NCBI GenBank assembly: GCA_002964805.2
Contig: PUDQ02000066.1
Location: 744,001-808,000, forward strand
Source of the DNA: Trametes villosa
Taxonomy: Eukaryota > Basidiomycota > Agaricomycetes > Polyporales > Polyporaceae
Direction of reading: 5' to 3'
DNA length: 64,000 nucleotides
In this document: in pieces, positions 3,032 through 58,868 of the stretch
How the letters are laid out: every line of letters starts with the position of its first letter
Numbering within the stretch: position 1 is the first letter of the stretch
Made by a program: the position numbers and the translations under genes
Notes under the pieces: model-generated
Seen by the model: the letters and a program-made list of their open reading frames with translations, nothing else
What the model was told of the DNA's origin: nothing
Database searches by the model: none

Positions 3032-4327
3032 TCACCAGCCGACAGGACCACCCGCACGCGCCTCGTTGTCGAAGAGGAGAGAAAGACCCCGAGCGATCCA
3101 AGTCCCGCCAGTTTTCTTGACAAGGTAGCCACGGTCTAGGTCGAGCGTCTTCACTACGTGGGAGGCGCCGCCCTGCGAGAAGGTCTGTATGGGCTCTCCT
3201 TCGCGCGGGAGGAGCGCGTCTGGGATCGGGACGAGGCCTGTGCTAGCCACTGGCTCAAGTATTCGCAGCACGCGGCACACAACGACACGGCGCCCGGTGT
3301 GCTCTGGGAGCGCCGACTTCTCGAAACGGCAGATAGCGGACCCTGCAAGGCCGCGGTCAGTAATAGGGATACATGTCCTGGCTGTACGGAACGCACCTTT
3401 CAGCAGAGGTCTTCGTCTGAGCAGTAGCGGGAGAGGGTAAACCGCCCTCAGGTTGCCATACGATAGGCACACTGGCAAGACGGTATCCATGCCGATGAAG
3501 CAAAAGCGGTGGTGGACGCGAGTGAAGTCGAAAAGAAACGGCTGTCCAAGCGCATGCACAATGCGGGGTGAGCCAGAGTCGAACGCGGCTGCAGCCGCAG
3601 GCAAGTCGGACGCCACGCGCAGGAGATCATGAGATACGAGACCGTCGTTGAGGAGGCGGAGCCGCAATGCTTCGAGGGTGCTCTTCCGGGCAATCGAGAT
3701 GACGGGAGTGCACCAGGGGAGCCCATCGCTACGGAGAAGATCTTGCCCTTCTGGGAAAAGGGCGGGGTCATTCGTGCCCGTGATGCGGAAGCGGACCTGC
3801 CCGGCGAGGGGAGGGGCGTTGGATGGGAGGTGGTAGTAGAGAAAACCGCGCGTGTGCTCGGGAAATCGTCCATCAGGCATGCCGGAGGGGTGGAGTTCGA
3901 ACTCAACCTGTGATTTGACGGCTGAGTGGGGGATAATTCGTTTGGAGGGAAAGTTTGCCCGGAGTGGTGTACGTTTCCTGTTGCCGAGATCGAGGAATTG
4001 AGAGGGCGTCAGGCGGCTGTGGTCGAGCGTTGACAGGCAATAATGCGAGGGTTTTCCCGGGGTTTTTCTGGGCTTGGCGCCACCTGTGCGCAAGGTAGAA
4101 CTCGAATGCTTGATGGAGGTTGATTTGTCGGGAGGCTTTTCGACAGTAGGGACAGATGAAGGGCCGGAAAGTGTCGGAGTCGTTTGGATACCTCTCAAAG
4201 TACTCCCTCGCATGATAGGGAGGAACTTTGGTCGGATGGCAGTCACAGTAGCTGCGACATGAGTAGGTCGTACTGCCGTCACGGTGGGAAGTTGAACTCG
4301 AACGATCCTCGACGTTAACGCTGGCAT
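3032..4327 (-). CDS. orphan protein, 431 aa, single exon (intact paralogue of the pseudogene at 41.9 kb)
   Basis: One uninterrupted frame of 431 codons runs from the ATG at 4327. I do not recognise a named domain. The first 110 residues are Ser/Thr/Pro-rich and basic. The body has GMPDGRFPEHTRGFLYYHLP, then RFRITGTNDPALF and GSPRIVHALGQPFLFDF. These blocks recur in the broken copy at 41,890-43,104, so the family is duplicated in the window, and the shared blocks suggest that this intact frame is a real gene. No signal peptide or membrane segment is evident. The absence of introns is unusual among the genes in this window. The function is unknown. Confidence 0.7.
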   Translation of the reverse strand: MPALTSRIVRVQLPTVTAVRPTHVAATVTAIRPKFLPIMRGSTLRGIQTTPTLSGPSSVPTVEKPPDKSTSIKHSSSTLRTGGAKPRKTPGKPSHYCLSTLDHSRLTPSQFLDLGNRKRTPLRANFPSKRIIPHSAVKSQVEFELHPSGMPDGRFPEHTRGFLYYHLPSNAPPLAGQVRFRITGTNDPALFPEGQDLLRSDGLPWCTPVISIARKSTLEALRLRLLNDGLVSHDLLRVASDLPAAAAAFDSGSPRIVHALGQPFLFDFTRVHHRFCFIGMDTVLPVCLSYGNLRAVYPLPLLLRRRPLLKGAFRTARTCIPITDRGLAGSAICRFEKSALPEHTGRRVVVCRVLRILEPVASTGLVPIPDALLPREGEPIQTFSQGGASHVVKTLDLDRGYLVKKTGGTWIARGLSLLFDNEARAGGPVGW

Positions 4328-11696: not shown

Positions 11697-11962
11697 GACG
11701 CTCGGCGAGATGGCTTAGGTACGCCCATTTGCAATTGTGCTTTATTGCGTCGCCGCTGTATACGTTCCCGCGTGTTGACTCACACCCTTAGGTACACATT
11801 CCGTGATGTCGGACATTGCCTCGAACCTTGCCTCGCTCGCTCGGCGGCCCGGATGCGTAGTCCTACTGTAGTGCACGATTGTACGTACGGAATTCCGCGT
11901 CGATAGACATACACATATATACACGCGCGTGTACATGCAGTACGACTTAGCCCATCCCCCGC

Positions 11963-12046
11963 CGTCCCGTCTCATCGCCCGCCACTGCGCCGTCCCGTCT
12001 CATCGCCCGCCACTGCGCCGTCCCGTCTCATCGCCCGCCACCGCGC
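11963..12046. repeat. minisatellite, three 28-bp units, just upstream of a start codon
   Basis: The unit starting CGTCCCGTCTCATCGCCCG is repeated at 11,963, 11,991 and 12,019, with a single difference in the last copy, and a partial fourth copy follows. The array is pyrimidine-rich and ends 20 bp before the ATG at 12,067. Confidence 0.9.
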
Positions 12047-12066
12047 CGTCCCATCACACCGATCGA

Positions 12067-15070: not shown

Positions 15071-17685
15071 CACAAGCTGTGGTAGTTATAATATAACATG
15101 TACCGTCTAATAGCCCAGAGCGCATTACATTATAAACCGTAGAGCTTTTATTATATCATTTTCCGGCCCTCCCGCCCTAGTAGCAGCCCGGGCACCTGCC
15201 TAATACAGCCGATTTCGGCGGGTGGCTGCTTATCAGCCCGGGCCATTCTTATCTCTCATAGATAACACTCTAATCTCATCAATCCGAGCTCCCGGCCACC
15301 CGGGTGGCGCGGGAATCCGAGCGCTTTGGCTCTCGGCTGGGAACTGCCCCGATTAGGCAGGCTCTCCTCTTACCTCCTCCCTTGGGCCGCTCTTCAGCTC
15401 CATATCTCACTCGTTTCTCATCCGATTTGCCTCGCAAGTGGCTCATTCGATTCACAGAAACGAGCGCTACAATTCGCTCCAATAGCGCAAGTTGTTTTGG
15501 TACGTACTCATCCCGATACAGCGTGTACAGATAGGCCCACTTGGGCGACGCGACCCGGGCGATATCTCGCCCGTTTCGCGTCGCACCGGGGCGCGTGCGG
15601 GCTCCCCAGAACGAGGCTGAACAGGGCTTTCTGGCGAGCCCACGCGCGCGCGGATCGGCCCAGCGGTTGTGATTCTGTGCTTCGCCCATCCAGGGCAGGA
15701 GCACAGACTCACCTCCTGGGCTGAATCTCGCTCATTTTGCCAGGGTTCTGGCTGAAACGTTGTACAGGCCCCTATTATTTGGTGGGCATTCGCTCATTTG
15801 GCTTTCCATCCCAGGTACAACAGTCCAAAAGCGCCAGACAGCCTCATGCTGGGGCCTGGCCCCAGGACGGCCCTTTTCCCGATATCCTGCGAACGCGGAC
15901 GCGCACCGCCACGAAACGCATATCCCCGGAAAGCTGCTGAACGCAGCTTTCCGTCGGTATGCTTTTCGTCGTGGTCCGACCGCTGGAACCGTCGCAGTCG
16001 CCACATGCCTCTCCCCACCCCCCTGCCCCCTTCACCTGGCCACTACTCGTCCAAATCCTACCCGTTTCGCCTTATCTAAGCTGTCCCTCCCTAGGAATAC
16101 ATAGCAGAACCGCATCGTACCATGCGATCAGTGTACTAATCACTAACCCTCATTTTCCGGGCTTATCAGTGCCTCCAGGCCTCTCCAGGTAGTCAACGCG
16201 ATCCCCGACCCGTCTCGCGCCCGATAAGCGTGTTGAGCGCGGATCCCTGTAGGTATGCATTACGGCTACGTATGTACAAAATATCTAAGGGATAGGAGCC
16301 TCGGTGGTAGAGCTATGGTGAGATCTCCTCGGGGAGGGCTCAGCCACAGGCCGTCTTAAGACGGTCTCAGCGGCTGCCCTGGGCTTGCATACAGTACAGC
16401 ACTGTAGGGAGCCCATCTAAAGGTGTAAAATACATATCTGTGCGAGTTTCCTACCGTTTGCCCCCATTCTTGATGTCCTGGATAGGTATATAGTAGTAGA
16501 ATCTAGCATGATTATCAGTTGATTTAGCCATGGCTTCCCTCACCGGCTATAGGGTAGTATATGGGACACTGAAGGTCCCAGATCAGCAAAATTGTACATT
16601 AGATGGTATTGCTTGAGCCTGTACATGTAATGACGGCTAGTACATCTACATGAGCACATAGAGGTACCTAGGCATCAGTTACCTTGCGCATAGAGTGGTA
16701 GCTGAGAGAAGGAAAGGGAGGGGAAGGGGGAGAGTAGCATGGGGAGGGGGAGAAGAGGCTGCGCGACGACGAGCGGCCGAATCGCCACAGCAAGCATACC
16801 GACGGAAAGCTGCGTTCAGCAGCTTTCCGGGGATATGCGTGCGGTGGCGGCGCGCGGTCGTATGCTCGAGATATCGAGGAAACCGTCGTCCAGGGGCAAG
16901 GCCCCAGAACGGCGCTTTCTGGGGTTTTCTAGATGCTTTACCTGGGCTGAAAAGTTGGATGAGCAAACGACCATCGAGTTCTGGGAGCCTGTACAAAGTT
17001 CAAGCCGCATCTGATGCGAATTGAGCGATGTACAGCCCAGGAGGTGAATCTGTGCTCCTGCCCTGGATGGGCGGAGCGCAGAATCACAACCGCTGGGCCG
17101 ATCCGCGCGCGCGTGGGCTCGCCAGAAAGCCCTGTTCAGCAGCTTTCTGGGGAGCCCGGGCGCGCCCCGAGGCGACGCGAAACGGGCGAGCTATCGTCCA
17201 GATCGCGTCGCCTTAGGTGGCCAGTATGTACACTGTGTAGTGACGTTAGTACGCACCGTATCGATTTGCTCCATTAGAGGATATTGTAGTGCTTGACGAT
17301 ACAAATCGAATGAGCCACTTGCGAGGCGAATCGGGTACGAAACGAGCGAGATACGGACGAGGAGAGCTGCCTAGGGGAGGTGGAATGAGGAGAACCTGCC
17401 TAATCGGGGAGGTGGCCAGCCGAGGGCCAAAGTGCTCGTATTCCCGCGCCACCCGGGTGGCCGGGAGCTCGGATTGATGAGACTAGAGTGTTATCTATGA
17501 GAGATAAGAATGGCCCGGGCTGATAAGCAGCCACCCGCCGAAATCGGCCGTATTAGGCAGGTGCCCGGGCTGCTACTAGGGCGGGAGGGCCGGAAAATGA
17601 TATAATAAAAGCTCTACGGTTTATAATGTAATGCGCTCTGGGCTATTAGACGGTTCCTATTATATCAGAACTACCACAGCTGCTG
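15071..17685. mobile_element. foldback element C, 2.6 kb, with 7-bp target-site duplication
   Basis: The element is flanked by GTGCAAA at 15,064-15,070 and again at 17,686-17,692. Its ends are CACAAGCTGTGGTAG on the left and the inverse of CAGCAGCTGTGGTAG on the right. The arms are long inverted repeats: about 15,107-15,330 pairs almost perfectly with 17,430-17,650, and weaker pairing goes on to about 16,000 and 16,740. A near-palindrome built around GGAAAGCTGC lies in both arms, at about 15,930 and 16,805. The roughly 700-bp centre is non-coding. No transposase is present, so it must be mobilised in trans. Its termini relate it to elements A and B. Confidence 0.85.
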
Positions 17686-17872: not shown

Positions 17873-20670
17873 ATGGCGACGATCAACTCAGCGGGCCCTC
17901 CGGGAGGCGCTACAGACCCGTACGTGAAATCTGTCACCTCCGCCGTGCACACTCACCGAGAACCTATGTTTAGGTCAGTACGGATCCGCCTCACCGTGCC
18001 ACCATCTGGTGTAGAAATGATACATCAGGAACCGGTAAGTCCTGTGGGACGCCATACAAATATAACCGGCTATAAGCGAACCCCCCCGGGGCTTCCGGGA
18101 TCAGTGATGGCTCTTGCCTTATAGGGTAGGCAGCCTCCGGGAGGCCTGCTATCTCCCCAGAGATAGCAGATGTGGCTAATCTAGAGAGATAGCAGCCTTA
18201 TCTCTCCTGATTAGCCACATCTGTTATCTCCCGGGCCTCCCTCCCTTCCCGGTGGCCCCGGAGCGCGGGCGCTTATTTCCCGTTTAGGTCGGCAGGAGGG
18301 GGGGTGCTCTCCCCTCCATACATAGCTCAGTTCCTGGCCGTTTGGGCTGTAAATATACTCATTTTGTTCGCATTTTCAGGGCGAATACAACGGTGGAACG
18401 TTCCTGGCGATTGGGTAACGTACAAGCCCGCTGGTATGTAGTACTGATCTACCCTTACAGGACTAGAAAAACGGCGATATCTCATCCAGTTCCCCTCGCG
18501 CCGCCGCGGTAAAAATACTCCCGGAATCGGGTCACCAACGCGCATCTAACGAGCCCTCACACGCGGGAATCCGACCGCGGGGGGCCGAGATGTGTAGGTG
18601 CCTCCTGGGAGGAGGTGCCCCAGCTCTACCTCGAGTATCTGTGGGCGGATCCGGCCGTGGAAGGGCTTAAAATACTCATGCTACGTATGGCAACGCAGGA
18701 AACCCATCCTGGGCGCGCCCAGCGAGGTCTACCCAATTGGAGAGGGCAGACAGTACCTACCTAGTAGTCAGCTCCCTCGCTCGATTCAGTGCTCCCCCCT
18801 GCCTCCAGACGGGCGCTGTTTTATGCCGTAGATGTATACCATACTGTACCATAGATATCCCAATTTTCAGGCCCATGCGCAGCATACTGTAAAAGATATT
18901 GAGCTCGCGCTTTCTGAGGATATTCAGCCTCCTGAATATCCTCCTGGGGGCGTATTGCGCTCGCGAGGGCACCGTCAGGTTTGCGTTAAGAATACCTACA
19001 AAGCGCAAAAAAAAGCATGTGAATTGGTGAAGAATTGAGCGAGAAATTAGAGTAACACTGTCCCAGAGACAGAAGTGAGACGCGTCTCACTCTGCTCACA
19101 AGCAGTGCCACTCGAGAATTCACTAGAGTGAGTGTCTGTACATTGTAAAATGCATATCTCCGTCAGTTCTGGACCGTTTTCCGCAAACTAACCTGCGTTC
19201 TGCTCGTGTTTGCTGCCCCATTTTAGGTGTGTACTGCTTCCCCTGCCAGGGGTAGGCGATCTGCCCCCAGAATGGACTACATTCTCAAACTGATAAGCAA
19301 TTTCGTAGCTTTCGCACGGCGCGATAAGGACGATGAAGGCATGCCTGAATACATGCATTCCACAGCTCTTAGGATCAAAAAAGATCGGGGGAAACGGTAA
19401 GGAACTGAGCTTTGTATGTACTATTTACTGTAGGTGTCTCAGAAAGTGTCTCATGAGGAATTCCTGCCTCTTCTACGAGGGTGAGGGCTGGGTACTTGGC
19501 CTGCCTATCCACCATGCTATTACAGCTACTGTATAAGCCCTTCCTCACTCAAATCCGTCCATAGATGGTTGAGATACAGCTGGGGCACCTCCTCCCAGGA
19601 GGTACCCACACAGCTCAGTCCCCCGTGGTCGGATCCCCGCGCGTGAGGGCTCGTTGGGTGCGCATCAACGCTCCCATTCCGGGGATATTTTTGCCGTGGC
19701 GGCGCGTGGGGAAATGGGCGAGATATCGCCCATTTACCAGTCCTGTAAGGGCAGATCAGTGCTACATACTAGCGGGCTTGTACATGGCCCAATCGCCGGG
19801 ATAAAACCACCATTGTATTCGCCCTGAAAATGCGAACAAAATGAGTATATTTACAGCCCAAACGGTGGGGAACTGAGCTATCTATTGAGGGGGGAGCACC
19901 CCCCATCCTGCCGACCTAAACGGGAAATAAGCGCCCGCGCTCCGGGGCCACCGGGAAGGGAGGGAGGCCCGGGAGATAAGGGATGTGGCTAATCAGGAGA
20001 GATAAGGCTGCTATCTCTCTAGATTAGCCACATCTGCTATCTCTGGGGAGATAGCAGGCCTCCTGGAGGCTGCCTACCCTATAAGGCAGGAGCCATCACT
20101 GATCCCGGAAGCCCCGGGGGGGTTCGCTTATAGCCGGTTATATTTGTATGGCGTCCCACAGGACTTACCGGTTCCTGATGTATCAACTCTACAACAGCAG
20201 CTGACCGTGCGCGGGCTCTTTACCACGGCGGTCGGGTTGGGCGAACTCTCGTCTTGCTGGGTTCTTGCGACATTGAACGTGGTCGAAGTCCGCGAGTGCG
20301 CGCCCGGTAGACCCTACGGCTCGCGATGTACGCACCATTCCTCTCTTACCCCTCTCCCTACGCTCATCGACACTTTTAGGGGGTGTCGGAATACTGTTTT
20401 CTCCGCCCCAGGAGGCCGTTCTGATCGACATCATGTCCGATGAATGGACGATCGAATACTTGGAGGTCAGTACCACGTCCCATCTCCCGCACGCAACTTG
20501 CCTGAAGTACGTGTTAGAGCTACAAAATGGTGGTCTTCCAGCGCAACTTCCCCGGCGGAACGTACACTCGGCAGTGCGTGCTGCTACAGGACCGTAGCTC
20601 CTTCTTGATCCTCTCTAGTGTATGCGCTAGTATCAAGATGTACACGTTGACCAGCGTGCTGCCCTCTTAA
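17873..20670 (+). CDS. orphan gene interrupted in a coding exon by element A
   Basis: The ATG is at 17,873. The frame stays open through the target duplication ACCGTGC at 17,993-17,999. On the far side of element A the second copy (20,204-20,210) continues in the same frame. Counting one duplication copy and no element, coding pieces 17,873-17,999, 20,211-20,306, 20,380-20,465 and 20,518-20,670 give exactly 154 codons including the stop. If element A is spliced as described in the next entries, the product gains 16 residues and stays in frame. The C-terminal part (MVVFQRNFPGGTYTRQ to IKMYT) weakly resembles the gene at 22,078. The function is unknown, and expression is unproven. Confidence 0.5.
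18035..18040 (+). promoter_or_regulatory. splice donor inside the left terminus of element A
   Basis: GTAAGT at 18,035-18,040 follows GAACCG. The host reading frame is open from 17,873 to 18,034 (54 whole codons), so an intron starting here would be in phase 0. The same donor occurs, facing inward, in the other terminus and in both ends of element B. Confidence 0.5.
20175..20197 (+). promoter_or_regulatory. branch-point and splice acceptor in the right terminus of element A
   Basis: CTGAT at 20,175-20,179 matches the fungal branch-point CTRAY and lies 19 bases before ACAACAG, which ends at 20,197. An exon starting at 20,198 continues in phase 0 into the host frame. Together with the donor at 18,035 this defines a potential 2163-bp intron. 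No transcript evidence is available. Confidence 0.45.
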
Positions 20671-20825
20671 GTCGATACGAGCACGTCTCCGCCATAATAC
20701 ATTCTGTTTGGGCGGTACATGGATAGTGGGCGAGCTGTTTCATCACACATACTCACACACAGAACGATGGCGTCCGGGACATGAGATATAATGCTTGCAT
20801 ACAACACGACATCGCCAACATATGC

Positions 20826-21555
20826 TCAACACAAGTCATCGTCCGAGATGTCCATCGCCGTCTCCTGAATCTGGAGCCACCTGGTGTATCCCTCAGCGGG
20901 CCGAACGTCGTTACTGCATCAGGGACACATACCGGTGAACCAGCGTGTTGATCATCGAAATCTCCGGTCGTGTGATGCTAACCGCGCGATTATACTGATA
21001 CCGGCCGCGTTTGACCACCAACAAGTTTCCTATCCAGTCAACGTCGAACGTACGACGAACCGCGCGGTTTGTAATCTTGGTGTGATGCGAGGCTCCGCCT
21101 GGGCGCAGCGTGATGAGATCGAAGCTATTGGAGAGTCGGCAAGTCGTCCCCGGGAAGGTGTACAATGAGTGAAGGGTTTGTTGATCGCCGAACCAGGGGT
21201 CCGTGTCGAGGTCCTCGGTGCATGGAGGGGCACCGCAGGCGGAGTCCCAGTCATCCCTTGCGGGAATGAGGACCATCCGCGGACGCGTGGAGTGCACCTC
21301 GTAGATGACCGCTCGACGTACGAGGGTCACGAGCGACTATGAGAGTTGCCGTGAGGAAGCTGTCAGCGACACCCCGGATCGACAGACGACGACGTACCAC
21401 TTCGCGGAACCATTTGATACGCGTGTTGTGCTCTGCGACCGTGATGTAGTGTCCCGCCGTTTCGGTGTCGCTCTGGCTGGATATCAGGCGTGCAGACACA
21501 GCTAGAGCCTCGGTTTACTTACCCCGTGCTCGGCGTCGTTGGAGTGTGCGGGCAT
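20826..21555 (-). CDS. orphan protein, four exons, 188 aa
   Basis: Exons on the minus strand are 21,555-21,523, 21,472-21,398, 21,336-20,933 and 20,880-20,826. Three introns of about 50-61 bp close the frame to 188 residues. The third donor is GTATGT and its acceptor is ACCAG at 20,881. I recognise no named domain. Visible blocks are EHNTRIKWFREV, RRAVIYEVHSTRPRMVLIP and WIGNLLVVKRGRYQ, then VSITRPEISMINTLVHR. The end is acidic (MDISDDDLC). A TATA box stands 64 bp before the ATG. The WIGNLLVVK block loosely recalls WPGNVVVLK of the MYND genes at 28-30 kb, which may indicate a shared C-terminal module. Confidence 0.65.
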
Positions 21556-21618
21556 AGTCAGAGAGCGCGAGCGTCGAGGGATGTTTGATGGGTAGAGCTA
21601 GCTACCGGGGGAGGCCAC

Positions 21619-21625
21619 ATTTATA
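21619..21625 (-). promoter_or_regulatory. TATA box of the 188-aa orphan gene
   Basis: TATAAAT on the minus strand lies 64-70 bp before the ATG at 21,555. Confidence 0.55.
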
Positions 21626-21954
21626 CCTCAGGACGTATGGTGGGAGCGACAGGCGCGAAGGACGCAGCGCCGGGCCCACCAGGAGCACGCTTTCGGCGTG
21701 CATCGACTGTGTATGACATCGGGCTGTGGCAATACACAAGCAGATGAGGCACTGCGCAGCGGGCGTGTACTGAGCGGGATGCTTACCGACGGAATACCCC
21801 GTCCGAAAAGGAGGATGACCAACAAGCCCGGGCCAACTGCGATCTGCCATAACACGTCCCGTCACGCGCACCGTCCGAGTCAGCGCGCCACGATGGGCAA
21901 CGGCGGCAGCGACGGGACTATACATACCTGAGCGCAGCTACCGCCGAGGCAAAT

Positions 21955-25940: not shown

Positions 25941-28144
25941 CAGCTGCTGTTGTAGAGTTGATACATCAGGAACCGGTAAGTCCTGTGGGACGCCATACAA
26001 ATATAACCGGCTATAAGCGAACCCCCCCGGGGCTTCCGGGATCAGTGATGGCTCCTGCCTTATAGGGTAGGCAGCCTCCAGGAGGCCTGCTATCTCCCCA
26101 GAGATAGCAGATGTGGCTAATCTAGAGAGATAGCAGCCTTATCTCTCCTGATTAGCCACATCCCTTATCTCCCGGGCCTCCCTCCCTTCCCGGTGGCCCC
26201 GGAGCGCGGGCGCTTATTTCCCGTTTAGGTCGGCAGGATGGGGGGTGCTCCCCCCTCAATAGATAGCTCAGTTCCCCACCGTTTGGGCTGTAAATATACT
26301 CATTTTGTTCGCATTTTCAGGGCGAATACAATGGTGGTTTTATCCCGGCGATTGGGCCATGTACAAGCCCGCTAGTATGTAGCACTGATCTGCCCTTACA
26401 GGACTGGTAAATGGGCGATATCTCGCCCATTTCCCCACGCGCCGCCACGGCAAAAATATCCCCGGAATGGGAGCGTTGATGCGCACCCAACGAGCCCTCA
26501 CGCGCGGGGATCCGACCACGGGGGACTGAGCTGTGTGGGTACCTCCTGGGAGGAGGTGCCCCAGCTGTATCTCAACCATCTATGGACGGATTTGAGTGAG
26601 GAAGGGCTTATACAGTAGCTGTAATAGCATGGTGGATAGGCAGGCCAAGTACCCAGCCCTCACCCTCGTAGAAGAGGCAGGAATTCCTCATGAGACACTT
26701 TCTGAGACACCTACAGTAAATAGTACATACAAAGCTCAGTTCCTTACCGTTTCCCCCGATCTTTTTTGATCCTAAGAGCTGTGGAATGCATGTATTCAGG
26801 CATGCCTTCATCGTCCTTATCGCGCCGTGCGAAAGCTACGAAATTGCTTATCAGTTTGAGAATGTAGTCCATTCTGGGGGCAGATCGCCTACCCCTGGCA
26901 GGGGAAGCAGTACACACCTAAAATGGGGCAGCAAACACGAGCAGAACGCAGGTTAGTTTGCGGAAAACGGTCCAGAACTGACGGAGATATGCATTTTACA
27001 ATGTACAGACACTCACTCTAGTGAATTCTCGAGTGGCACTGCTTGTGAGCAGAGTGAGACGCGTCTCACTTCTGTCTCTGGGACAGTGTTACTCTAATTT
27101 CTCGCTCAATTCTTCACCAATTCACATGCTTTTTTTTGCGCTTTGTAGGTATTCTTAACGCAAACCTGACGGTGCCCTCGCGAGCGCAATACGCCCCCAG
27201 GAGGATATTCAGGAGGCTGAATATCCTCAGAAAGCGCGAGCTCAATATCTTTTACAGTATGCTGCGCATGGGCCTGAAAATTGGGATATCTATGGTACAG
27301 TATGGTATACATCTACGGCATAAAACAGCGCCCGTCTGGAGGCAGGGGGGAGCACTGAATCGAGCGAGGGAGCTGACTACTAGGTAGGTACTGTCTGCCC
27401 TCTCCAATTGGGTAGACCTCGCTGGGCGCGCCCAGGATGGGTTTCCTGCGTTGCCATACGTAGCATGAGTATTTTAAGCCCTTCCACGGCCGGATCCGCC
27501 CACAGATACTCGAGGTAGAGCTGGGGCACCTCCTCCCAGGAGGCACCTACACATCTCGGCCCCCCGCGGTCGGATTCCCGCGTGTGAGGGCTCGTTAGAT
27601 GCGCGTTGGTGACCCGATTCCGGGAGTATTTTTACCGCGGCGGCGCGAGGGGAACTGGATGAGATATCGCCGTTTTTCTAGTCCTGTAAGGGTAGATCAG
27701 TACTACATACCAGCGGGCTTGTACGTTACCCAATCGCCAGGAACGTTCCACCGTTGTATTCGCCCTGAAAATGCGAACAAAATGAGTATATTTACAGCCC
27801 AAACGGCCAGGAACTGAGCTATGTATGGAGGGGAGAGCACCCCCCCTCCTGCCGACCTAAACGGGAAATAAGCGCCCGCGCTCCGGGGCCACCGGGAAGG
27901 GAGGGAGGCCCGGGAGATAACAGATGTGGCTAATCAGGAGAGATAAGGCTGCTATCTCTCTAGATTAGCCACATCTGCTATCTCTGGGGAGATAGCAGGC
28001 CTCCCGGAGGCTGCCTACCCTATAAGGCAAGAGCCATCACTGATCCCGGAAGCCCCGGGGGGGTTCGCTTATAGCCGGTTATATTTGTATGGCGTCCCAC
28101 AGGACTTACCGGTTCCTGATGTATCATTTCTACACCAGATGGTG
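25941..28144. mobile_element. foldback element B, 2204 bp, inverted copy of element A
   Basis: CCAACCT flanks the element at 25,934-25,940 and 28,145-28,151. The element reads as the reverse complement of element A over the same 2204 bp. All short frames translated from the two copies are identical, including those of 83, 79, 77, 72, 68 and 67 codons. Because its target duplication differs from that of A, B moved by transposition and did not arise by segmental copying of the site. Its right end lies 76 bp before the ATG of the MYND gene at 28,221. Both ends keep the inward GTAAGT and outward acceptor-like CTACACCAG or CTACAACAG. Confidence 0.9.
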
Positions 28145-34697: not shown

Positions 34698-37055
34698 TCA
34701 GCTGCTACGAGAGAGACTGGCGAACCAGTCCCGTGTTGCTTCATCGAGACGATCGATTCGAGCTAGTTCATCCCTTAACTCCTGAGACAATCGCGAGCAC
34801 AGTTTCGCCACCGAGAACGGGCGAAGAATTATCAGGCCGTCCAACGACCTCACTCTGGAAAGCATCACATAAACTCCTTGGATTGTCTTCGCACTCTCTA
34901 TGTCGACTATAGCTGTTGTGAGTGACTTCCCCTGGCTTTTGTAATCCGTATACGCGTAGGCGGGGACCAGTGGCAGCTGCTCCCTCACCACAGTTTTCAC
35001 CACTTTTCTGCCACCGATAGAAACAGTACACTTAAACCGCGTCGTCTCTGGAAATATAGGTACTACGTCATCATCAAGATCTGGCACGATATTTCCTGCT
35101 CCAGGTACGTGCACGTATGCAACCGTAGCATGCAATTGACCGTCAACATTCGCATATAGCACGTTGCGCACGGTCCCTTCCGTTCCGTTGACAAGACGCT
35201 TACTGAAAGCTATGTTCTCTCGTATCATGACTTTCATTCCCTTGAACATAGGCAAGTGTCCCAGAGAATCCTCCGTAGCGCTTGATGGTAATTTCCACAG
35301 TCCACGGCGCAAATCACCCTCTACAGCCTTCCCGTCGAGTTTATCTTTAGCATAGAAGATCGAAACCTCCTCGCCAAGCCGTTGAGCGACATGGGTGATC
35401 ACCCGGGCGTTCAGCGCATCCCTCAAGACCTTCGTTCCGACAATTATCGGTGCGTCGCTGAATTTCGCCAAGCTCTCCGGGTTGTCACGCCCTACCCGTT
35501 GCAGTATACGTCCGTACAACACGTCTGGATCACTGCTCTCGCCGCTCAGATTGTCTCGCTGGCCACGAGCCTCGCCGCATCGGACGCGGTCCAACAATGC
35601 TGCGTACGTAGGGTCAGACGACTGCCGCTGGTTCTTCTGAAGCTTGACGACGGTCTTCACCTGTCGCCAGAGGTAGACTCCCTGTAAGTTGTCCAATCCT
35701 GCATGATTCCGAATAGTCTGCAACCCGGGGTTGTTGATCAGCTTGTGGTTATACAGCGTCGACGCACGCACAGGTTTCAGTTGTCCGAAATCACCTGTAA
35801 ATATGATGTTTACGCCGCCGAAGGGCAAGCTTGCAAGAGCTCCGTCGTTCGATTTTCCTTGCTGCAGTCGCTTTGATACATCGTTCAAGAAACCCGCCCC
35901 GATCATGGAAATCTCGTCGATCACCAGGTACTTGACTGGCTTCCACAGCTTCCTTAGTTCTACTAAAGTAGTCTTGCTCTTGCTAGGCATCATCGTCAGA
36001 GAATGCACGGTGTAACCGCCAATATTCAAGGCTGCAGCGCCTGTAGGAGCGCTCACTAATATCTCTCTGCTGCGGTTCAACAGCTCAAACAGGCGCAGTA
36101 TCGCTTTTACAACGTACGTCTTTCCAGTACCCCCTACCCCAGCGATATACATCAGCAACTGCTCACCACCGCTTTGAACATGTTTAGCGACGATTCGGAA
36201 TGCTCTTTCCTGCTCCTCGTTGCTATACAGCTTCATCTCCTGCACTACTTGCTCTACAATCGGCTGAAAATGGTCAACGGTAATGCCTTCGTTTGCCTCA
36301 CCACCGCTCGACGCCACTCCAAAACTAGGGTCTGTAAGCGTAGCCCGCGTGATGTTCTCCGTCGTATCACGCGTCCGACGACGTTTTCGCGGCCTGCTAC
36401 CCTCAATGTCGTCCTCATCCTCGAAAGAAGGTCTGCGCTGCCTCTTCAGTGACTGCATGATCTTTGTCTGCTGGAGTAGCAAAGGTCCGTCATCCTCGCG
36501 ACGCATTCTTGAGGGGAAACCTTCTGGCGAACGCTCACGGCCTCGGCACAGATCGATTCCAACGGACCCAGCGCCAAAACAAGCGTCGAGAAGCTCTCTG
36601 GCCTGCGCGCCAACCTTGTCGTCGAGAGCTTGTTGGGATGTGTCGAGCTCGTTCACAAATTCGTAAGCATCAACGTCGCGCGAACTGTCGAATAGCTGAA
36701 ATGGCTGATTTTCTGTCTCATCAAATTCACCCGCACGCTGTTGGTCCGTGGACGGTAGGCCATCTGTGAGAGACGCAAGAGCCTCCGCACGGCGCAAATT
36801 GCGGAACACATCCCTCGCGTCCCTACACTCTGAGAGGACGCCCATGTTCCGTATCACTTCGAGGTGTCGATCAGAAATCTGACCTCGTCGACTCTCAAAC
36901 GCCTCTGTCCAAGTTTGACCGTCGTCGCACAGATCGGATGGTTTCCGCCAAGGGACGAACAGGATCAACATCATGCGAGACCAATGTTCTTTCTCTTCCG
37001 GCTCTCTATCAGGGCGCGGCACGCGCTCGCCAAGGATGACTGGCACTGTCCACAC
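34698..37055 (-). CDS. Helitron PIF1-type helicase half of RepHel
   Basis: The frame holds 785 codons counted from 37,055 and continues open and in frame up to the TGA at 37,137-37,139. Residues 306-313 are Walker A (GVGGTGKT) and 378-383 are Walker B (VIDEIS), followed by FTGDFGQLKPV. The C-terminal block AYAYTDYKSQGKSL and VMLSRVRS complete a PIF1/RecD-like superfamily 1B helicase. A basic run (RPRKRRRTR, about 221-229) may be a nuclear signal. In Helitrons this helicase is fused to the Rep nuclease and unwinds DNA during rolling-circle transposition. The first codon reported here is GTG, so this is the second half of a larger gene and not a separate gene. Confidence 0.9.
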   Translation of the reverse strand: MWTVPVILGERVPRPDREPEEKEHWSRMMLILFVPWRKPSDLCDDGQTWTEAFESRRGQISDRHLEVIRNMGVLSECRDARDVFRNLRRAEALASLTDGLPSTDQQRAGEFDETENQPFQLFDSSRDVDAYEFVNELDTSQQALDDKVGAQARELLDACFGAGSVGIDLCRGRERSPEGFPSRMRREDDGPLLLQQTKIMQSLKRQRRPSFEDEDDIEGSRPRKRRRTRDTTENITRATLTDPSFGVASSGGEANEGITVDHFQPIVEQVVQEMKLYSNEEQERAFRIVAKHVQSGGEQLLMYIAGVGGTGKTYVVKAILRLFELLNRSREILVSAPTGAAALNIGGYTVHSLTMMPSKSKTTLVELRKLWKPVKYLVIDEISMIGAGFLNDVSKRLQQGKSNDGALASLPFGGVNIIFTGDFGQLKPVRASTLYNHKLINNPGLQTIRNHAGLDNLQGVYLWRQVKTVVKLQKNQRQSSDPTYAALLDRVRCGEARGQRDNLSGESSDPDVLYGRILQRVGRDNPESLAKFSDAPIIVGTKVLRDALNARVITHVAQRLGEEVSIFYAKDKLDGKAVEGDLRRGLWKLPSSATEDSLGHLPMFKGMKVMIRENIAFSKRLVNGTEGTVRNVLYANVDGQLHATVAYVHVPGAGNIVPDLDDDVVPIFPETTRFKCTVSIGGRKVVKTVVREQLPLVPAYAYTDYKSQGKSLTTAIVDIESAKTIQGVYVMLSRVRSLDGLIILRPFSVAKLCSRLSQELRDELARIDRLDEATRDWFASLSRSS

Positions 37056-37136
37056 CGTACGTCTTCGTAGTCGATGAGTCGCGTACTGCGTATGCTGATC
37101 AGACGAGAAGCGTCCACGCGGCTCAGCATTCCGCCC

Positions 37137-40100
37137 TCATCTGCGAGCTGTTGGTGGGACTGCACCCGTCGCGATCTGCGGTTCCGCGTCGCTAGGCTTC
37201 AGCCTCTCCTTGTCCGTCATACCTACGAACTCGTATAGCGCCATGCTCTCAAAAACCGGATCCACGCTGCGGTACATGTAGTCCTGCTTTTGGTTTGTAG
37301 ACGATATTGACCCGTCCCTCTCTAGGCTAAGAACAAAGGAGTCTTCGGTACCCGATCTAGATTCTTGCATAGTCCGTGAAGTACCCCCACCTCCTTCGTT
37401 GTCGGCCGTATCTGAGCCTCTGCGCATAGAACCCATATCCTCATCGACATCGAATGGGATGGCGTCTTGGCCCATCGCGACGCCGCTCTCATCGATCATG
37501 ACAATGTCCTCGCCGCCCGCGACACCACGATCATCCTCCATCACTACGTCCTCACTCTCTACGACACCATTTCCCTCCGCCATTTCGACGTCCTCGCCTC
37601 CCGCACCAGCATGTACTGCAGAAGCATGGATCCCTGACGCCATGCCGGTGCTCTCGACGTTCACAGGTACGCTAAGACTCGTTGTAGCGTCTAAGGCGTT
37701 GACTGTTTCCTCATTAACTGTCCTCATAGCACTCCGAAATAGCCTGTCGAAAGATCCCCAATGCAGCACCCGGAAAGTGTGGCCAGTGTACACATCACCA
37801 CCACCCACCAGGTAGCTCATGACTTGCTGGTGAGAAATCTCTTGACGCGATATCATTCTGTTGACAACTGTGGTGAGTGCTCCTCTAGCCTTCCCTGGAG
37901 TCTGTTCGTCGAGCATGTGCGGAAATTTCTCGTTCACGCGCTGAATGGCGTAAGACAGCGCGCCCAAGCCGTCGTGCAGCTGCAACGACGGTTTTGTGAT
38001 ATAATCAGTTATATAGTACAGCAGCGCCTTCGCAGCTTCACCGGACCCGATAAATTTCAGCTCTACGTTCGATTTGAAAAAGAATATCAACAAGTCATTG
38101 TAGCTAGCGATACGCGGGTGTAATCGTCGAAGAATCAGCGCGCCCGAGTCGTCGTCTAGGTGAGTTATGGGGCACGTAGACCCATCGATCCGCATCCTGC
38201 AAAGTGCGTCACGCTGACCTGGTTCTTTCGGTATTACCCCATTAGGTACATACTTGAAGCAGGTAGAGTTGTGCTCGTGCCAATTATACTCCTTCACCAG
38301 CTCTGTCACGAATGCATTGAACGCAGTTTCAAAGTCCTCGATCCGGTCGAACGCACGAATGGAAGGAGAAGGCGCGGCGCCGGGATGTGGATTGCCTGAC
38401 TCCTCTGCTCGTTTCGGCCGCGGTAGGGGCTGTCCCGACTCACTGACGACTTCCACGGTGCCCGGAAGCTCACATTTAATGACAGATTCGAGCCAACGAA
38501 ACATCTGCTCTCTGTAGGTATCGGAAGACATCATTTTGTCGCGCAATATCTGCGGGGACGGATGTCCGTCAAGCCATATCAACATATGGCAATGAAGCGT
38601 ACCTCGCCCCTGCGCTTCGACGGTACCATAGTACGCATTGCATTTCCCGAAGAGCCCTCTTCCAGGTTTGCCAAATCGCAGCACGGTACCGATGAATTGG
38701 CTGATCATTTTGTGGAAGAACCGTGCACAGGCGGAAGGGTTTCGTGCGGCGAGGATGGTCCGATCCCAGCGGTTCATATCCTCGCCCCGAAGCACGTCCT
38801 CTGCGACGACCTCGTGCCCTGCGTATAGTCGCACCAATGGGTGGTCTCGATCGGACGGGTTCAGTGTTATGAACAATGTAGGTGTTCCGCGAAAGTTTAT
38901 CAGGGCGCGAATCTGGTTACGGAGATTTATCTTATACCCATTAGATCCCGGTAAGTCGTGGGCAGCTGTATTGACACGCAAGAGGAGCTTCAAGATCTTC
39001 GCCTCGTCATCGTCCTGTGCCTTGCACCGAGGATCAGTCTCGGAACGCGCGATCAGTGCGTCTAATTTCTTTATGTCTACCTTCAGTAGCTCGCTGACGA
39101 CATCATCCCGCTGGGACTCCGCTACACGAAACGTTACCGAATCCAGAACAGCCTTCTTCTGTCGGATGTTGTAGAAGACAAAGGCAAATCCGGGGTCATT
39201 TCGGAAAGGCGAGTCCGCTACCATGAGCAAATACTTCAACTGCTGCTCGAGAGTAAGTTTACGCTGACGCTTTTTGTGGAAGAATCCACCAATGCCCCAT
39301 GGATCTAGGTGAGGGAACAACCAGGAGAGTAGCTCACTGTTCTCGAAGTCAGGTATGAACCTAGAACCGGCTTGCGACTGAACGAATCCGCCGCCGCGCA
39401 GACAGTGGGCTAAAGCCTTCTTCCCCATGCTATCGATATCCACCGGCGAATCGTCCGCATCCGTATATCCCACAGTCTCGATCAGCAAGTCATCATGGGG
39501 GGAGGAGGGGTGCTCGTTCTGCCCCGGAACGTAGCCCTCGGTGGCACCGTCTACAGCATCGTTATGCTGGATGTGACCGATCTCCATAGCGCAAGGTACG
39601 CCCGCGTCCGCGTCCGCGCCGTCTGGGGCATTACTGAACAGCGCATTCATGTTCTCCTGACTGTACCCCCTGAAGGTTTCAGACACGCCATAGGAGGGGT
39701 TATGAGCGACCAGGAAATCAATCATAGTTTTCACGCGCGACTTTCGCACGAGAACGGGGCGCAAGCTCTGGATATTCTGCATGGTTGGCTTGTTCTCCCC
39801 GACGAACACCGCACATACGGTATCACGTATGATGTCGTACCCAGGCGGTAGAACATGATTCAGATGTGTCGCATCCTGAGGATGTATTGCAACGTTTCCT
39901 TTGACAAAACTCTGAGAAGCTCGAGGATCCGTCTGGTGCAGGAAGTGTCCTTTCATCTGGCTAAATTTGAACGAGATCGCGCTCGCACGCGCACGCGCGA
40001 CCAACATACGCTCCATGTGCGTAGCTTCCCTGAAGGCAGTCGCAACATCGGAAGGAAGACTATCCTGACCATAATATAGCCAGTTAGCCAATGCGTATTT

Positions 40101-40949
40101 GGGCATAACCCCGCACGTCAAGTCCTTACTACATTCCCCACAGAAAGTCACCTCGCCTCTGACATCGCGAGATTTGAGGCCCCTAGGATGAAGGATCGCT
40201 CCGTCGTATGCATCACGGTTGTACGACACGGGTAACAGAGCGGCAGGTAGACTATCATTCCGGAGCAGCGTCAGGTCAATCTGGTCGCACGTTCGCCGTA
40301 CAGTGCGCTCGGGAGGTGTAAGGCGTCCACAAGCAGCACAAACAAGATCCGTCAACGCCGCTGCAGACATTGCCTGCTCCCATTCTGTGATTATTGCATG
40401 ACGGAGGGCATCGTCTGCGACGGACAAGTATGCATCCTCCTCATCGACTGCCATGCCATGCTCACCCTCTGCTTCCACAGGAGGCACGTCCTCGTCGGCG
40501 ACCACAGATGGCAGCTCCGGTCCTGCGTGCGCTTCAGCCTGCTCGACATGTGCTGCGGGAGCTACGACTGTATTGCACTCGTTTGCGTGCTTTACCGCAG
40601 GTCGAGGTCTACTCAGAACCTGAAAGATGTATTCGACCTGAACGCAGCGATGGACGACGCAGTCGTGTCCCGAGAGAAGAATCATAGCATCCTCCACGCG
40701 GATCTTCTTCGAAGGTACCTGGATACCATGAGCTCTGCCTAACGTCCGCAAGTGAGCGACTTTCCACAACCCGAACAGCGGCAGGAGATCTTGCAGAGAA
40801 CATGAAAGGATGAGATCACCGGCCTTCGCCTGTGCGCTGTATGCAAATGGTACCGCGTGCGACAAGCATTTGAACTGGAACATAAAATCGAGGTGTGCGC
40901 GGGATATACGACGGCTTGCAGGTTCCAGACGACCGTGAACGATAGACAT
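37137..40949 (-). CDS. Helitron Rep (HUH endonuclease) half of RepHel, 1270 codons
   Basis: The frame is open from the ATG at 40,949 to the TGA at 37,137-37,139. A cysteine pattern (CAACG at 204-208, CGEC at 270-273) and LANWLYYGQ at 288-296 are typical of the region before the Rep domain. The Helitron-like N domain spans about 580-990 and contains TPTLFITLNPSD and the two-histidine metal site in GRGTLHCHMLIWLDG (His786, His788). The paired-tyrosine motif YYITDYITK is at 978-986. This is a rolling-circle nuclease that nicks and joins DNA strands. Acidic, low-complexity sequence occupies about 140-175 and the last 200 residues. The helicase follows in frame beyond the stop. Confidence 0.9.
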   Translation of the reverse strand: MSIVHGRLEPASRRISRAHLDFMFQFKCLSHAVPFAYSAQAKAGDLILSCSLQDLLPLFGLWKVAHLRTLGRAHGIQVPSKKIRVEDAMILLSGHDCVVHRCVQVEYIFQVLSRPRPAVKHANECNTVVAPAAHVEQAEAHAGPELPSVVADEDVPPVEAEGEHGMAVDEEDAYLSVADDALRHAIITEWEQAMSAAALTDLVCAACGRLTPPERTVRRTCDQIDLTLLRNDSLPAALLPVSYNRDAYDGAILHPRGLKSRDVRGEVTFCGECSKDLTCGVMPKYALANWLYYGQDSLPSDVATAFREATHMERMLVARARASAISFKFSQMKGHFLHQTDPRASQSFVKGNVAIHPQDATHLNHVLPPGYDIIRDTVCAVFVGENKPTMQNIQSLRPVLVRKSRVKTMIDFLVAHNPSYGVSETFRGYSQENMNALFSNAPDGADADAGVPCAMEIGHIQHNDAVDGATEGYVPGQNEHPSSPHDDLLIETVGYTDADDSPVDIDSMGKKALAHCLRGGGFVQSQAGSRFIPDFENSELLSWLFPHLDPWGIGGFFHKKRQRKLTLEQQLKYLLMVADSPFRNDPGFAFVFYNIRQKKAVLDSVTFRVAESQRDDVVSELLKVDIKKLDALIARSETDPRCKAQDDDEAKILKLLLRVNTAAHDLPGSNGYKINLRNQIRALINFRGTPTLFITLNPSDRDHPLVRLYAGHEVVAEDVLRGEDMNRWDRTILAARNPSACARFFHKMISQFIGTVLRFGKPGRGLFGKCNAYYGTVEAQGRGTLHCHMLIWLDGHPSPQILRDKMMSSDTYREQMFRWLESVIKCELPGTVEVVSESGQPLPRPKRAEESGNPHPGAAPSPSIRAFDRIEDFETAFNAFVTELVKEYNWHEHNSTCFKYVPNGVIPKEPGQRDALCRMRIDGSTCPITHLDDDSGALILRRLHPRIASYNDLLIFFFKSNVELKFIGSGEAAKALLYYITDYITKPSLQLHDGLGALSYAIQRVNEKFPHMLDEQTPGKARGALTTVVNRMISRQEISHQQVMSYLVGGGDVYTGHTFRVLHWGSFDRLFRSAMRTVNEETVNALDATTSLSVPVNVESTGMASGIHASAVHAGAGGEDVEMAEGNGVVESEDVVMEDDRGVAGGEDIVMIDESGVAMGQDAIPFDVDEDMGSMRRGSDTADNEGGGGTSRTMQESRSGTEDSFVLSLERDGSISSTNQKQDYMYRSVDPVFESMALYEFVGMTDKERLKPSDAEPQIATGAVPPTARR

Positions 40950-41889
40950 ATACTGAGCTCCAACACCTGGGGTACATCATAATACAGGACACACAACATC
41001 GCAGACGGCATACAACATCAAGGGCGCACGGGGCGACGGGAGGGGATAGAGGTCAGAACGTATAGGTTGGTAGAGGAGCGAGACGACGAACCGTCAACCG
41101 AAGCAGCTGCCGGCGGGTTCATGTAGGGTCCGTTGGACCCAGACAGCGCTTCTAGCAAAACATGAGAGGGTGTCGGAAAGTAGATTGAACACTTACCGAT
41201 ATGCCTCCCAGCCGCTATGTGTTGCTCTGGATCAGGACGCGCCCCTGCATAGAGTCTCGTCAGAAGCGACCAGTGGCGGACTTGATCGAAACATACGTAC
41301 CCAACGCGTCCGAAACAGGGAGCAGACGGCTGTGCTCAACGGGACCTGGGATGGCATACGCCACGTCTGAAGGGATCGGTGAGCTACGAGACACTAAAGG
41401 GATGCAATTGTACTCACCGGTAGCGGTACTCTTCATGGCAGGTGATGAGACTAGAGAGTAAATATGCAGGTTCCGACGTGGTGACGGGGAAGAGAGAGAG
41501 AGAAACTATAAGCGCGCAAAGACACTTGTATGTCTGAGCGTGGGAAAAAAACCAAGCAAACCAAGACAAAAGCGTGAGTCACTCCTGTGAGGAAACCGTG
41601 GGTGACGTGACCGTCACAGAGGAAGCGTGATTCTACCCCCTAAGACCTGTTCTACTTCGTAGTCCAGGAATTAATACCCTCGGGGGGCTAGCGCTCGAGC
41701 TTGTGGGAGCGCGTCTCTTTCGGCGCTTAAAGACTTCGCATGTTACCTTCTTCCCTTCATCGCCTGCGCACACTTCGAGGTAAGTAACTTACGCATGCTC
41801 TGCTCTTGAACGGTGCCGTACACTTATGCACATGCGAAGGTATACTACTCTAAGGACTCTTACCCAGGGAGATACAACTTGTTCCTGTC
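40950..41889. other. region upstream of the Helitron and of the orphan pseudogene
   Basis: The 5' end of the Helitron may lie here. A GAGAGA run at about 41,492-41,503 would read TCTCTC on the minus strand, but no hallmark fixes the end. The palindromic GTAAGTAACTTAC near 41,778 lies in the leader of the pseudogene, 5' to 41,890. Confidence 0.4.
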
Positions 41890-43104
41890 ATGGCAGTACG
41901 GTCGCGTCAGGCTGTCGCTAGTGTAGTGACCAGCGTGTCCGCCATTCGGCCCAACGCCATCACTGCCGTTTCGAGGAGCATCCTGAAAGGTTTTCGAACG
42001 ACAGCGACGCTTTCTGGCGGGTCACCGCCAGCCTCTATCGAAGGGCGTCCCAGCGGCGCAGAGGGGTCCGACAATATCCTCCTACGCTCGCCATTCAGAT
42101 TGTCAACGCTCGACCATGACCGCTTAACAACTTCTCAATTCATCGATCTCGATGACAAAATATATCAGGGACCTGCAACCGGCATCCACTCCAAACGAAG
42201 CGGCTCGGGCTCAGCTGCTAGACTATCGAGGTTCGGGCTATTCCCCTCCGGCATGCCCCATCTACGATTCCCCGAACACGCGCGCGGGTTTCTCTACTAC
42301 CACCTCTCACCCAGCACCTCTCCTCTCTCCGGCTAAGTTCAGCTCCGCATCACAGACACCAACGACCCCGCCCTCTTTGCAGGAGGGCAAAACCTCCTCC
42401 GAACAAGCGACGGCCTCCCTTGGGGCTGTAGCCTCATCTCGACTACGCACAATATCACTCGAAGGAATACGGCTCCGCCTAATCGAAGCCTGTCCGAATA
42501 GCTCCTGCGAACCGTGTCAAGCTTGCCTGCAGCTTCCATCGAGGTTAACACTAGCTCGCCGAGCCTCGTGCACGCATTTGGCCAGCCGTTCATGTTCGGC
42601 TTCTGAATGACCAACCAACTCAACTTCTTCATTGGCTCAGACACCGTCATGCCGGTGCGCACGACATGCAGGATATCGATATTCCATCGTGCTACGGGCG
42701 GACTTCCCCGGTGGTCGCCTGTTCTGACAGGTAAACGTCCTGTAGACGCCTAATCGCGAACCTGTTGTGCTGAACGTGCCGTTCCAGGGACCGCTCTCTG
42801 CTGTTTCGAGAAGTCGACGCTCCCTGAGCACGCCGTCGGACGTCGCGTCGTCGTGTGCCGCGTCTTGCGCATTCTGAAACCGGTAGAGAGCACAAGCATC
42901 AACCGAGTTCCAGACGCTCTCATCCCGCGCAAAGGAGAATTCGTACGGACCTGGCCAATTCGACCTGCAGGCCCCCCGGAGAAGACATTTGACGTTGATC
43001 GTGACCTCGCCAAATTGCCTAACGGAACCTGGAACCCGGAACCCGGATCGCGCATGGCCTTGCTCTCCTCTACGACAATGAGCGGCGCGCGGGTGGTCAA
43101 GTAG
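41890..43104 (+). pseudogene. decayed paralogue of the 431-aa orphan gene
   Basis: The first 148 codons align with the intact gene at 3032-4327 (STLDHDRLTTSQFIDL, FPSGMPHLRFPEHARGFLYYH). A TAA near 42,334 then stands where the intact copy has a Gln codon, and the same frame goes on as LRITDTNDPALF. Later blocks (HAFGQPFMFGF, FIGSDTVMPV, GRRVVVCRVLRIL) occur in shifted frames with more stops. At least two frameshifts and three stops are therefore present. The copy is not expected to make a full protein. Confidence 0.8.
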
Positions 43105-54240: not shown

Positions 54241-55684
54241 CTACACTTTGAGCTTGGACTCCTCGTAGGTAGGCCAGTCGATGTAGCCGTGGGGATCCTC
54301 CGCGGCGTAGTAGACGTCGCGAGACCAGCCTTCCAGAGGCAAGTTCTTCATGAGCCTGACGGGGAGGTCGGGCTAGAGAGGGCGATTGCGGGTAGAGCTT
54401 CCCAATCAGTACCCATCGCTAGGTGGGTGTAGAATACCACGACATACGTTGCTCAAGAAACGCCTCCCGAATGCGATAAGCTCTCCAGTCTCTTCGGCGC
54501 GCGCAATAGCGGTCTCCCGCGTGTAGCGGCCTGCGGAGATGAGCGTACGGGGGAGCCATATCTTGCGGAGGAAGTCGTTGGTCTCAAGGGGGTAGCGGTC
54601 AGCTCCATGTAAGGGGTGAGGAACGTAGAGGGGGGTGGACATACCTCTCCTTCTTCGATGTCCTTGTCGTCCGTGCCAGAGAGGCCCGGCTGAACGAGGG
54701 AAATGTAGGCGAGGTCGGGGTGCTTCTCAGCCAGGCTAGAGACAAGATGGGAGAATGTCGGGATCTGGTCCGCGACGGCGACGTCTACGAATAGGTCGCC
54801 GTGTAAGGAAGTGGACGACGCATGCATAGTGGCGGGTAGCGGGTGGACTCACCGTTGAACGCGCTCCACGGACTCATGCGGATGGCCGTCCTCTTCGCGC
54901 CGACAGCTGCGACGACGGCGTCGACGACCTCGAGCGAGAAGCGGCACTTCTTCTCGGGCGAGCCGCCGTAGTCGTCCGTCCGCTTGTTGGTGTGGTCCTG
55001 GAGGAACTGGTCGAGCAAGTAGCCGTGGGCGGAGTGGATCTCGACGCCGTCGAACCCGGCGCCGAAGACGGCGTTCTTGGCGGCGGTGGCGAACCCCTCG
55101 ACGTGTTGCTTGATCTCTGTGCGCCGGCTGTTAGCGGCTAGGAGGAACGGACAATGTGCCTGAGGTACGCACCGTCGACGGTCATAGCCCTAGGAGCGAC
55201 AATGCTTCCCTTCATGGGTACAGCGGAGGCGGAGAGGTAGGGATAGTCGCCATCCTTGGCGAGCTCAGTCAGGTCGGCGGCACGTCCGATGGCCCAGATT
55301 TGCATGAAGATGTAGGACCCCTTCGCATGGACGGCGTCGGCGACCTGCCACACAGTGCGTCAGCCCAAGCGATGTGGGATGAGTCGCTATACGTACCCGC
55401 TTCCAGGCAGCGATCTGTTCATCGCTCCAGACGCCAGGGATGTGGACGGAGATGCTGCCGGCCCAAGGGGCGATGTACGTGGCTTCGGTGATGCAGAGGG
55501 TGCCGGGGACGGAGGCGCGTTGGGAGTAGTACTTGACGGCCATGTCGCCGTGGACGTGCTTGTCGTTGGCGCGCATGCGGGTGAGAGGGGCGAGGACGAT
55601 GCGGTGGGCGAGGGTGAGGTTGCCCACTTGCACGGGCTGGAAGAGCTTGGGAAGGGTGGGGGTAGAGGGCGGCTCGAACTGCAT
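54241..55684 (-). CDS. old yellow enzyme family NADH:flavin oxidoreductase, six exons, 376 aa
   Basis: Exons on the minus strand are 55,684-55,397, 55,344-55,173, 55,116-54,853, 54,784-54,645, 54,582-54,448 and 54,372-54,241. The protein is a TIM-barrel FMN enzyme. It shows [40 protein letters not shown] and the substrate-binding pair in HSAHGYLL (His181 and His184; many yeast members have Asn at the second site), then DYGGS and the phosphate-binding region near GRRFLSN. Such enzymes reduce activated alkenes with NAD(P)H. The acceptor before TNDFLRK is GAG, so its position rests on the paralogue. The paralogue at 57,448-58,868 is closely similar. Confidence 0.9.

Positions 55685-57447: not shown

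Positions 57448-58868
<1,421 letters not shown>

Follow-up and report, generated by a model that had tools for sequence, protein, structure and literature searches.

Organization of the Locus

The window analyzed here is a 64-kb stretch of DNA from a genome of 46.7 Mb in 140 contigs. We took this genome to be basidiomycete-like because it contains matches to KDZ transposases, tnp2-type and Helitron genes, and a host gene with introns of ~50 nt; the host gene is thus probably fungal. This gene has three exons and two introns of 52 nt each, and its exon 1 is interrupted by a transposon that we call element A (Table 1). An identical copy, element B, is a second insertion within ~10 kb, and each of the two has its own target site duplication (TSD). 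A longer element of a sister family (F2) ends ~180 bp before the ATG of the host gene.

Several other features were found in the window. On the minus strand, a Helitron_like_N/DUF6570 frame and a PIF1 helicase frame (34701-40976) lie in the same reading frame, one codon apart. Tandem duplicates with 73-82% identity are located ~3.19 kb apart (54259-55666 and 57460-58859), and the frame in the first of these matches the NADH:flavin oxidoreductase (old yellow enzyme) family. Diverged inverted duplicates (3279-4052 and 42084-42851; 75-78%), which cover long reading frames, are separated by 38-39 kb, and a 28-bp tandem repeat occupies 11960-12061. No RNA family reached its gathering score within the 64-kb window.

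Table 1. Coordinates of the host gene, the transposons, and the candidate splice signals in the window.
Feature	Position	Strand	Remark
F2 element	15071-17685	+	2615 bp; 910-nt TIRs; TSD GTGCAAA; without donor
Host exon 1, part 5' of the insertion	17873-17999	+	holds one TSD copy
TSD ACCGTGC, left copy (element A)	17993-17999	.	
Element A (family F1)	18000-20203	+	2204-bp non-autonomous transposon
Left terminal inverted repeat arm of element A	18006-18669	+	664 nt; 89% complementary to right arm
Candidate 5' splice site GTAAGT	18035-18040	+	element position 36
Competing internal branch site and acceptor CTGATCTACCCTTACAG	18444-18460	+	inside element A
Right terminal inverted repeat arm of element A	19534-20197	-	pairs with left arm
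Candidate branch site CTGAT	20175-20179	+	~20 nt before ACAACAG
Candidate 3' splice site ACAACAG	20191-20197	+	ends 6 nt inside element end
Host exon 1, part 3' of the insertion	20204-20327	+	begins with second TSD copy
TSD ACCGTGC, right copy (element A)	20204-20210	.	
Host exon 2	20380-20465	+	based on paralogue L066
Host exon 3 and stop	20518-20670	+	based on paralogue L066
Element B (F1 copy identical to A, inverted)	25941-28144	-	TSD CCAACCT

The Host Gene and Its Paralogues

When the protein predicted from the empty site was searched against the genome, we found three collinear matches on contig C18 (E 5e-7 to 3e-5), one of which spans the insertion joint. The paralogue at this site (locus L066) encodes 156 aa and is identical to the host protein at 71 of 160 aligned positions (44%), end to end. 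Its introns of 49 and 52 nt are in positions that match both host introns. L066 runs uninterrupted through the point equivalent to the insertion of element A, and a weaker paralogue, L068 on C82 (E 6e-4 when L066 was the query), is likewise ungapped there. Because the paralogues have no gap at this point, element A is a derived insertion into an exon, and the originally proposed exonic insertion with a TSD is supported. The idea that the host ORF is spurious was dropped once the C18 paralogue was found, and by this comparison we judge the predicted gene to be real. The empty-site model has 161 codons.

Relatives of the host protein outside this genome were sought in a large protein collection. 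With an early exon model, which was 15 residues short of the corrected version, there were 34 candidates and none had E <= 10; with the alignment of the two paralogues, there were 258 candidates and none had E <= 1. Both searches were blank, and thus no relative outside this genome was found in that collection. No Pfam family was found for the protein of the early model, and the flank at 20204-21700 matched only itself in the genome.

Element A and the F1 Family

The two terminal inverted repeat (TIR) arms of element A are separated by a spacer of 864 nt, and no ORF of >83 aa lies wholly within the element. Its termini read CACCATCTGGTGTAGAAATGATACATCAGGAACCGGTAAGTCC and, for the reverse complement of the other end, CAGCTGCTGTTGTAGAGTTGATACATCAGGAACCGGTAAGTCC. 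The genome search, which gives lower bounds, found at least 7 complete copies of this family (F1) plus fragments. Among the 7 complete copies, four have exact 7-bp TSDs, one has a TSD with 6 of 7 bases matching, and two have none. Based on the TIRs, the fixed-length TSD, the several unrelated insertion sites, and the absence of a transposase, F1 is a non-autonomous TIR DNA transposon family. Elements A and B are in opposite orientations and have 100% identity across a 2208-nt match, which indicates recent activity.

A search with the F1 ends gave 34 matches. Of these, 18 are exact and belong without exception to the 7 complete copies or to 4 fragments, and 16 have 1-2 mismatches. For 12 of the 16 mismatched ends, an inverted partner was sought within ~1.5 kb, and no convincing short paired derivative was found; one weak inverted end pair, with 4 mismatches, is present in L051. 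In one F1 copy (L013:2018-4203), both ends are of the CAGCTG type and the TSD is absent, which is what recombination between copies would produce.

The insertion sites of the F1 copies are diverse, and only copy A was found to interrupt a host coding exon among the 7 complete copies. Element B is located just upstream of a cysteine-rich reading frame, and a 196-codon frame crosses its empty site; the cysteine-rich frame looks MYND-like by eye, with Pfam matches that are all sub-threshold. Three of the 7 complete copies are in or adjoining retrotransposon genes. C107a splits a pol frame whose reverse transcriptase, RNase H, and integrase domains are distributed over the two sides of the insertion; C23 splits a gag-like frame that has a zinc knuckle on one side; and C107b is near a frame with a Tf2-1-like SH3 domain typical of retrotransposon integrases. 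Copy C1b had seemed by eye to be inserted in a hAT-transposase gene, but no Pfam family was found in either of its flank frames, and it is left without assignment, as is C1a. A truncated copy on C140 adjoins a tnp2-type transposase frame (E 9.5e-8).

The Sister Families F2 and F3

Two other families, F2 and F3, carry the F1 end pattern, and exact 7-bp TSDs were found in all copies read (8/8 in F2 and 8/8 in F3). The genome search for F2 gave 18 near-full-length single matches, including the element in the window, along with further matches broken into two parts. At C45 and C65, the end pairs are larger and resemble F2 copies interrupted by other sequence. F3 copies are present on C1, C3, C14, C65, and C88. 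TIR lengths are ~660-930 nt across these families, and the 15-bp end pattern has 143 matches in the genome, compared with 50 for a reversed-pattern control. At the position of the F1 GTAAGT, F2 has TCTAAT or TCTATT and F3 has T(A/G/T)TAGC. In the seven F2/F3 elements scanned (7 of the 16 read), the first 80 nt of each end contained nothing resembling a donor.

Frames of >=400 codons cross the empty site in 5 of 16 F2/F3 copies, compared with 2 of 7 complete F1 copies; at the F3 copy L022, this frame has 890 codons. A large ORF without a Pfam family (L067:2153-4810) is located downstream of a retrotransposon pol frame, and the F3 elements L018, L019, and L022 interrupt its relatives. The frames at L044 and L025 had been considered as parts of an autonomous partner and were rejected, as they are an ORF that follows a retrotransposon pol frame.

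Candidate Splice Signals in the Element Ends

From the ATG at 17873, exactly 162 nt (54 codons) can be read without a stop before the GTAAGT at 18035 is reached, and the branch site and ACAACAG near the other end are present as originally predicted. The exon that would start at 20198 keeps the phase and continues into the host exons downstream, but its predicted product of 170 codons had to be corrected to 177 including the stop, with exon 3 starting at 20518 according to the paralogue. The putative splicing of 18035-20197 would retain 35 + 6 + 7 = 48 nt (16 residues), and thus the host frame would be kept. By inspection, the 35-nt head contains TAG in one of three phases.

The splice motifs are at fixed positions in the terminal repeats, and GTAAGT was found in all 15 F1 family ends examined. 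Since the F1 ends are inverted repeats, both orientations carry the donor/acceptor property. The GTAAGT columns are no better conserved than much of the surrounding TIR: invariant columns across the F1 ends amount to 92-98% at positions 61-300 and 67-85% at positions 1-35 and 42-60. The related ends found on C11, C69, and C140 have the sequence GGACAGTGG or GGACAGTGGGG, with no donor. The local RNA fold around the donor of element A is unremarkable (z -0.35).

Virtual splicing left the frame open in all three copies tried (A, C107a, and C23), compared with a chance expectation of two thirds per copy, or ~0.3 for three of three. There is no sign of a bias toward host exons among the 7 F1 copies, a small set assessed without gene models.

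We estimated how often the full arrangement may arise by chance by requiring a GTRAG(T/C) donor in the first 60 nt, a branch site and acceptor in the last 60 nt, a remainder divisible by 3, and an open host frame. When the TIR was shuffled with its dinucleotides preserved, all of these occurred together 22 times in 20,000 (~0.1%); when window stretches were taken as perfect TIRs, they did so in 17 of 9,135 (~0.2%). Both figures are only suggestive, because the criteria were chosen once the case was known and perfect TIRs were assumed.

Acceptors that could compete for the same donor were scanned for introns up to 700 nt or at sites after 20150. An internal acceptor ending at 18460 would give a 426-nt intron, and translation would stop after 55 residues. 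This acceptor and the one ending at 20197 both have CTGAT, and the internal site has more pyrimidines (10/15 vs 8/15). A genome search for the footprint of the spliced joint, made with <=3 mismatches and for the first acceptor rather than the site 3 nt further, gave four matches, all at 3 mismatches, a number equal to that of the reversed control.

Origin of Element A and Alternative Explanations

The best explanation, to which we assign a probability of roughly 70%, is that a non-autonomous cut-and-paste transposon with long TIRs, perhaps mobilized by a Kyakuja/KDZ-type transposase, recently disrupted a small gene and that its splice motifs are a by-product. The long TIRs, the 5'-CA..TG-3' ends, and the 7-bp TSDs are those expected of a cut-and-paste DNA transposon, and mobilization would probably have occurred in trans. 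The recent insertion into exon 1 of the three-exon gene most likely knocked the gene out. The CAG of the acceptor may be part of an end motif that is common to the sister families and presumably bound by the transposase, while the GTAAGT donor appears to be a coincidence specific to F1. KDZ transposase pieces have 116 matches in the genome. Among the 100 of 143 end matches that were listed, there was no end pair spanning a KDZ match and no autonomous element with such termini, and the Kyakuja/KDZ mobilizer is thus a lead.

A different and rather unlikely outcome is that the spliceosome removes element A through its own GTAAGT and ACAACAG, so that the gene survives with 16 additional residues; this would be accidental splicing at one locus in the manner of maize Ds1, for which a precedent is cited in the available text of PMC3260210, and not the work of an intron-making family. 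The donor matches the consensus, the branch site and acceptor are suitably spaced, and the product would be open. Low-level in-frame splicing of copy A may still occur, because the full arrangement is rare by chance. However, the proposed intron of 2163 nt is far longer than the 52-nt introns of the host gene and than those of its paralogue (the original prediction had compared it with introns of 47-65 bp); nearer acceptors exist, of which the one ending at 18460 would truncate the protein; and the donor and acceptor are both within the complementary arms. We estimate at about one in five the chance that in-frame splicing of element A would be of real consequence.

It is much less probable that element A is an introner of unusual size, i.e., a member of a transposon family in which selection has favored splice sites that turn exonic insertions into introns. 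Copy A is an exon insertion, has candidate splice sites near both ends, and would keep the frame if spliced; across the family, these sites are at fixed positions in both ends and both orientations, with a frame-neutral remainder. Yet, the occurrence of multiple family copies as host introns was not observed: among at least 7 complete copies, one is in a host coding exon, two are in pol/gag frames, one is beside a retrotransposon gene, and element B is only beside a host-like frame. The original proposal of an introner also fits poorly with the low copy number, the lack of short derivatives among the ends examined, the ordinary conservation of the GTAAGT columns, the related ends without a donor, and the lack of a spliced-joint footprint. 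Furthermore, the donor-less F2 and F3 cross long frames about as often as F1. The general proposition that a 2.2-kb transposon with a long hairpin may serve as a ready-made, orientation-independent intron, in which insertion with a 7-bp TSD leaves 48 nt and two of three phases survive, is similarly improbable.

Inverted repeats play a role in the SOS splicing of animals, and the arms of element A are long and 89% complementary. According to the available text of a review (PMC13247085), DNA transposons can be excised from mRNAs in animals, and the process is described there for metazoa. The removal of element A from mRNA by such a hairpin-dependent, spliceosome-independent route is the least probable explanation.

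The disruption of the host gene by a cut-and-paste transposon remains our preferred reading. If element A is spliced, a kilobase-scale transposon would have turned into an intron in a single step, within a gene that otherwise has introns of ~50 nt, and intron gain would not be confined to short elements. If it is not spliced, the presence of a donor and an acceptor near the ends of a transposon would be insufficient to define an introner even where the frame is kept, because the sister families insert similarly and have no donor. No earlier report of element A was found in the literature searched, which does not show that none exists.

Comparison with Known Systems

Ds1 is a non-autonomous TIR transposon that is found in exons and has usable splice sites near its ends. 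Dennis in 1988, Wessler in 1991, and Giroux in 1994 are said to have described maize Ds1 insertions that are spliced as introns. Element A is also a non-autonomous TIR transposon in an exon with candidate splice sites near its ends. However, Ds1 is ~400 bp long with 11-bp TIRs and is reported to be spliced according to the available portions of the sources, whereas element A has 2204 bp and 664-nt TIRs and is known from its sequence.

Among introners, the Aureococcus family brings its own donor and acceptor and adds 12 nt, i.e., whole codons, as described in the available text of Gozashti et al. (2022; PMC9860276). Element A resembles introners in having TIRs, a TSD, and both candidate splice sites, and would add whole codons as the Aureococcus family does. 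It differs in that its length is ~3 times the longest of the family medians given in that text (30-654 nt), its copies are few with no genic burst seen, and the donor is absent in its sister families.

The Kyakuja (KDZ) elements of Agaricomycotina have 7-bp TSDs and CA..TG ends, and the families of Laccaria are described as lacking TIRs, according to the available text of PMC12730594. Element A has a 7-bp TSD and 5'-CA..TG-3' termini, and KDZ matches are abundant in this genome, but it has no coding capacity and has long TIRs (664-928 nt across A and its relatives). Because Kyakuja is described without TIRs, we propose only possible mobilization in trans and do not claim membership. The hAT7 elements of Puccinia, as described in the same text, also have 7-bp TSDs; this TSD length is the likeness to element A, which has no transposase.
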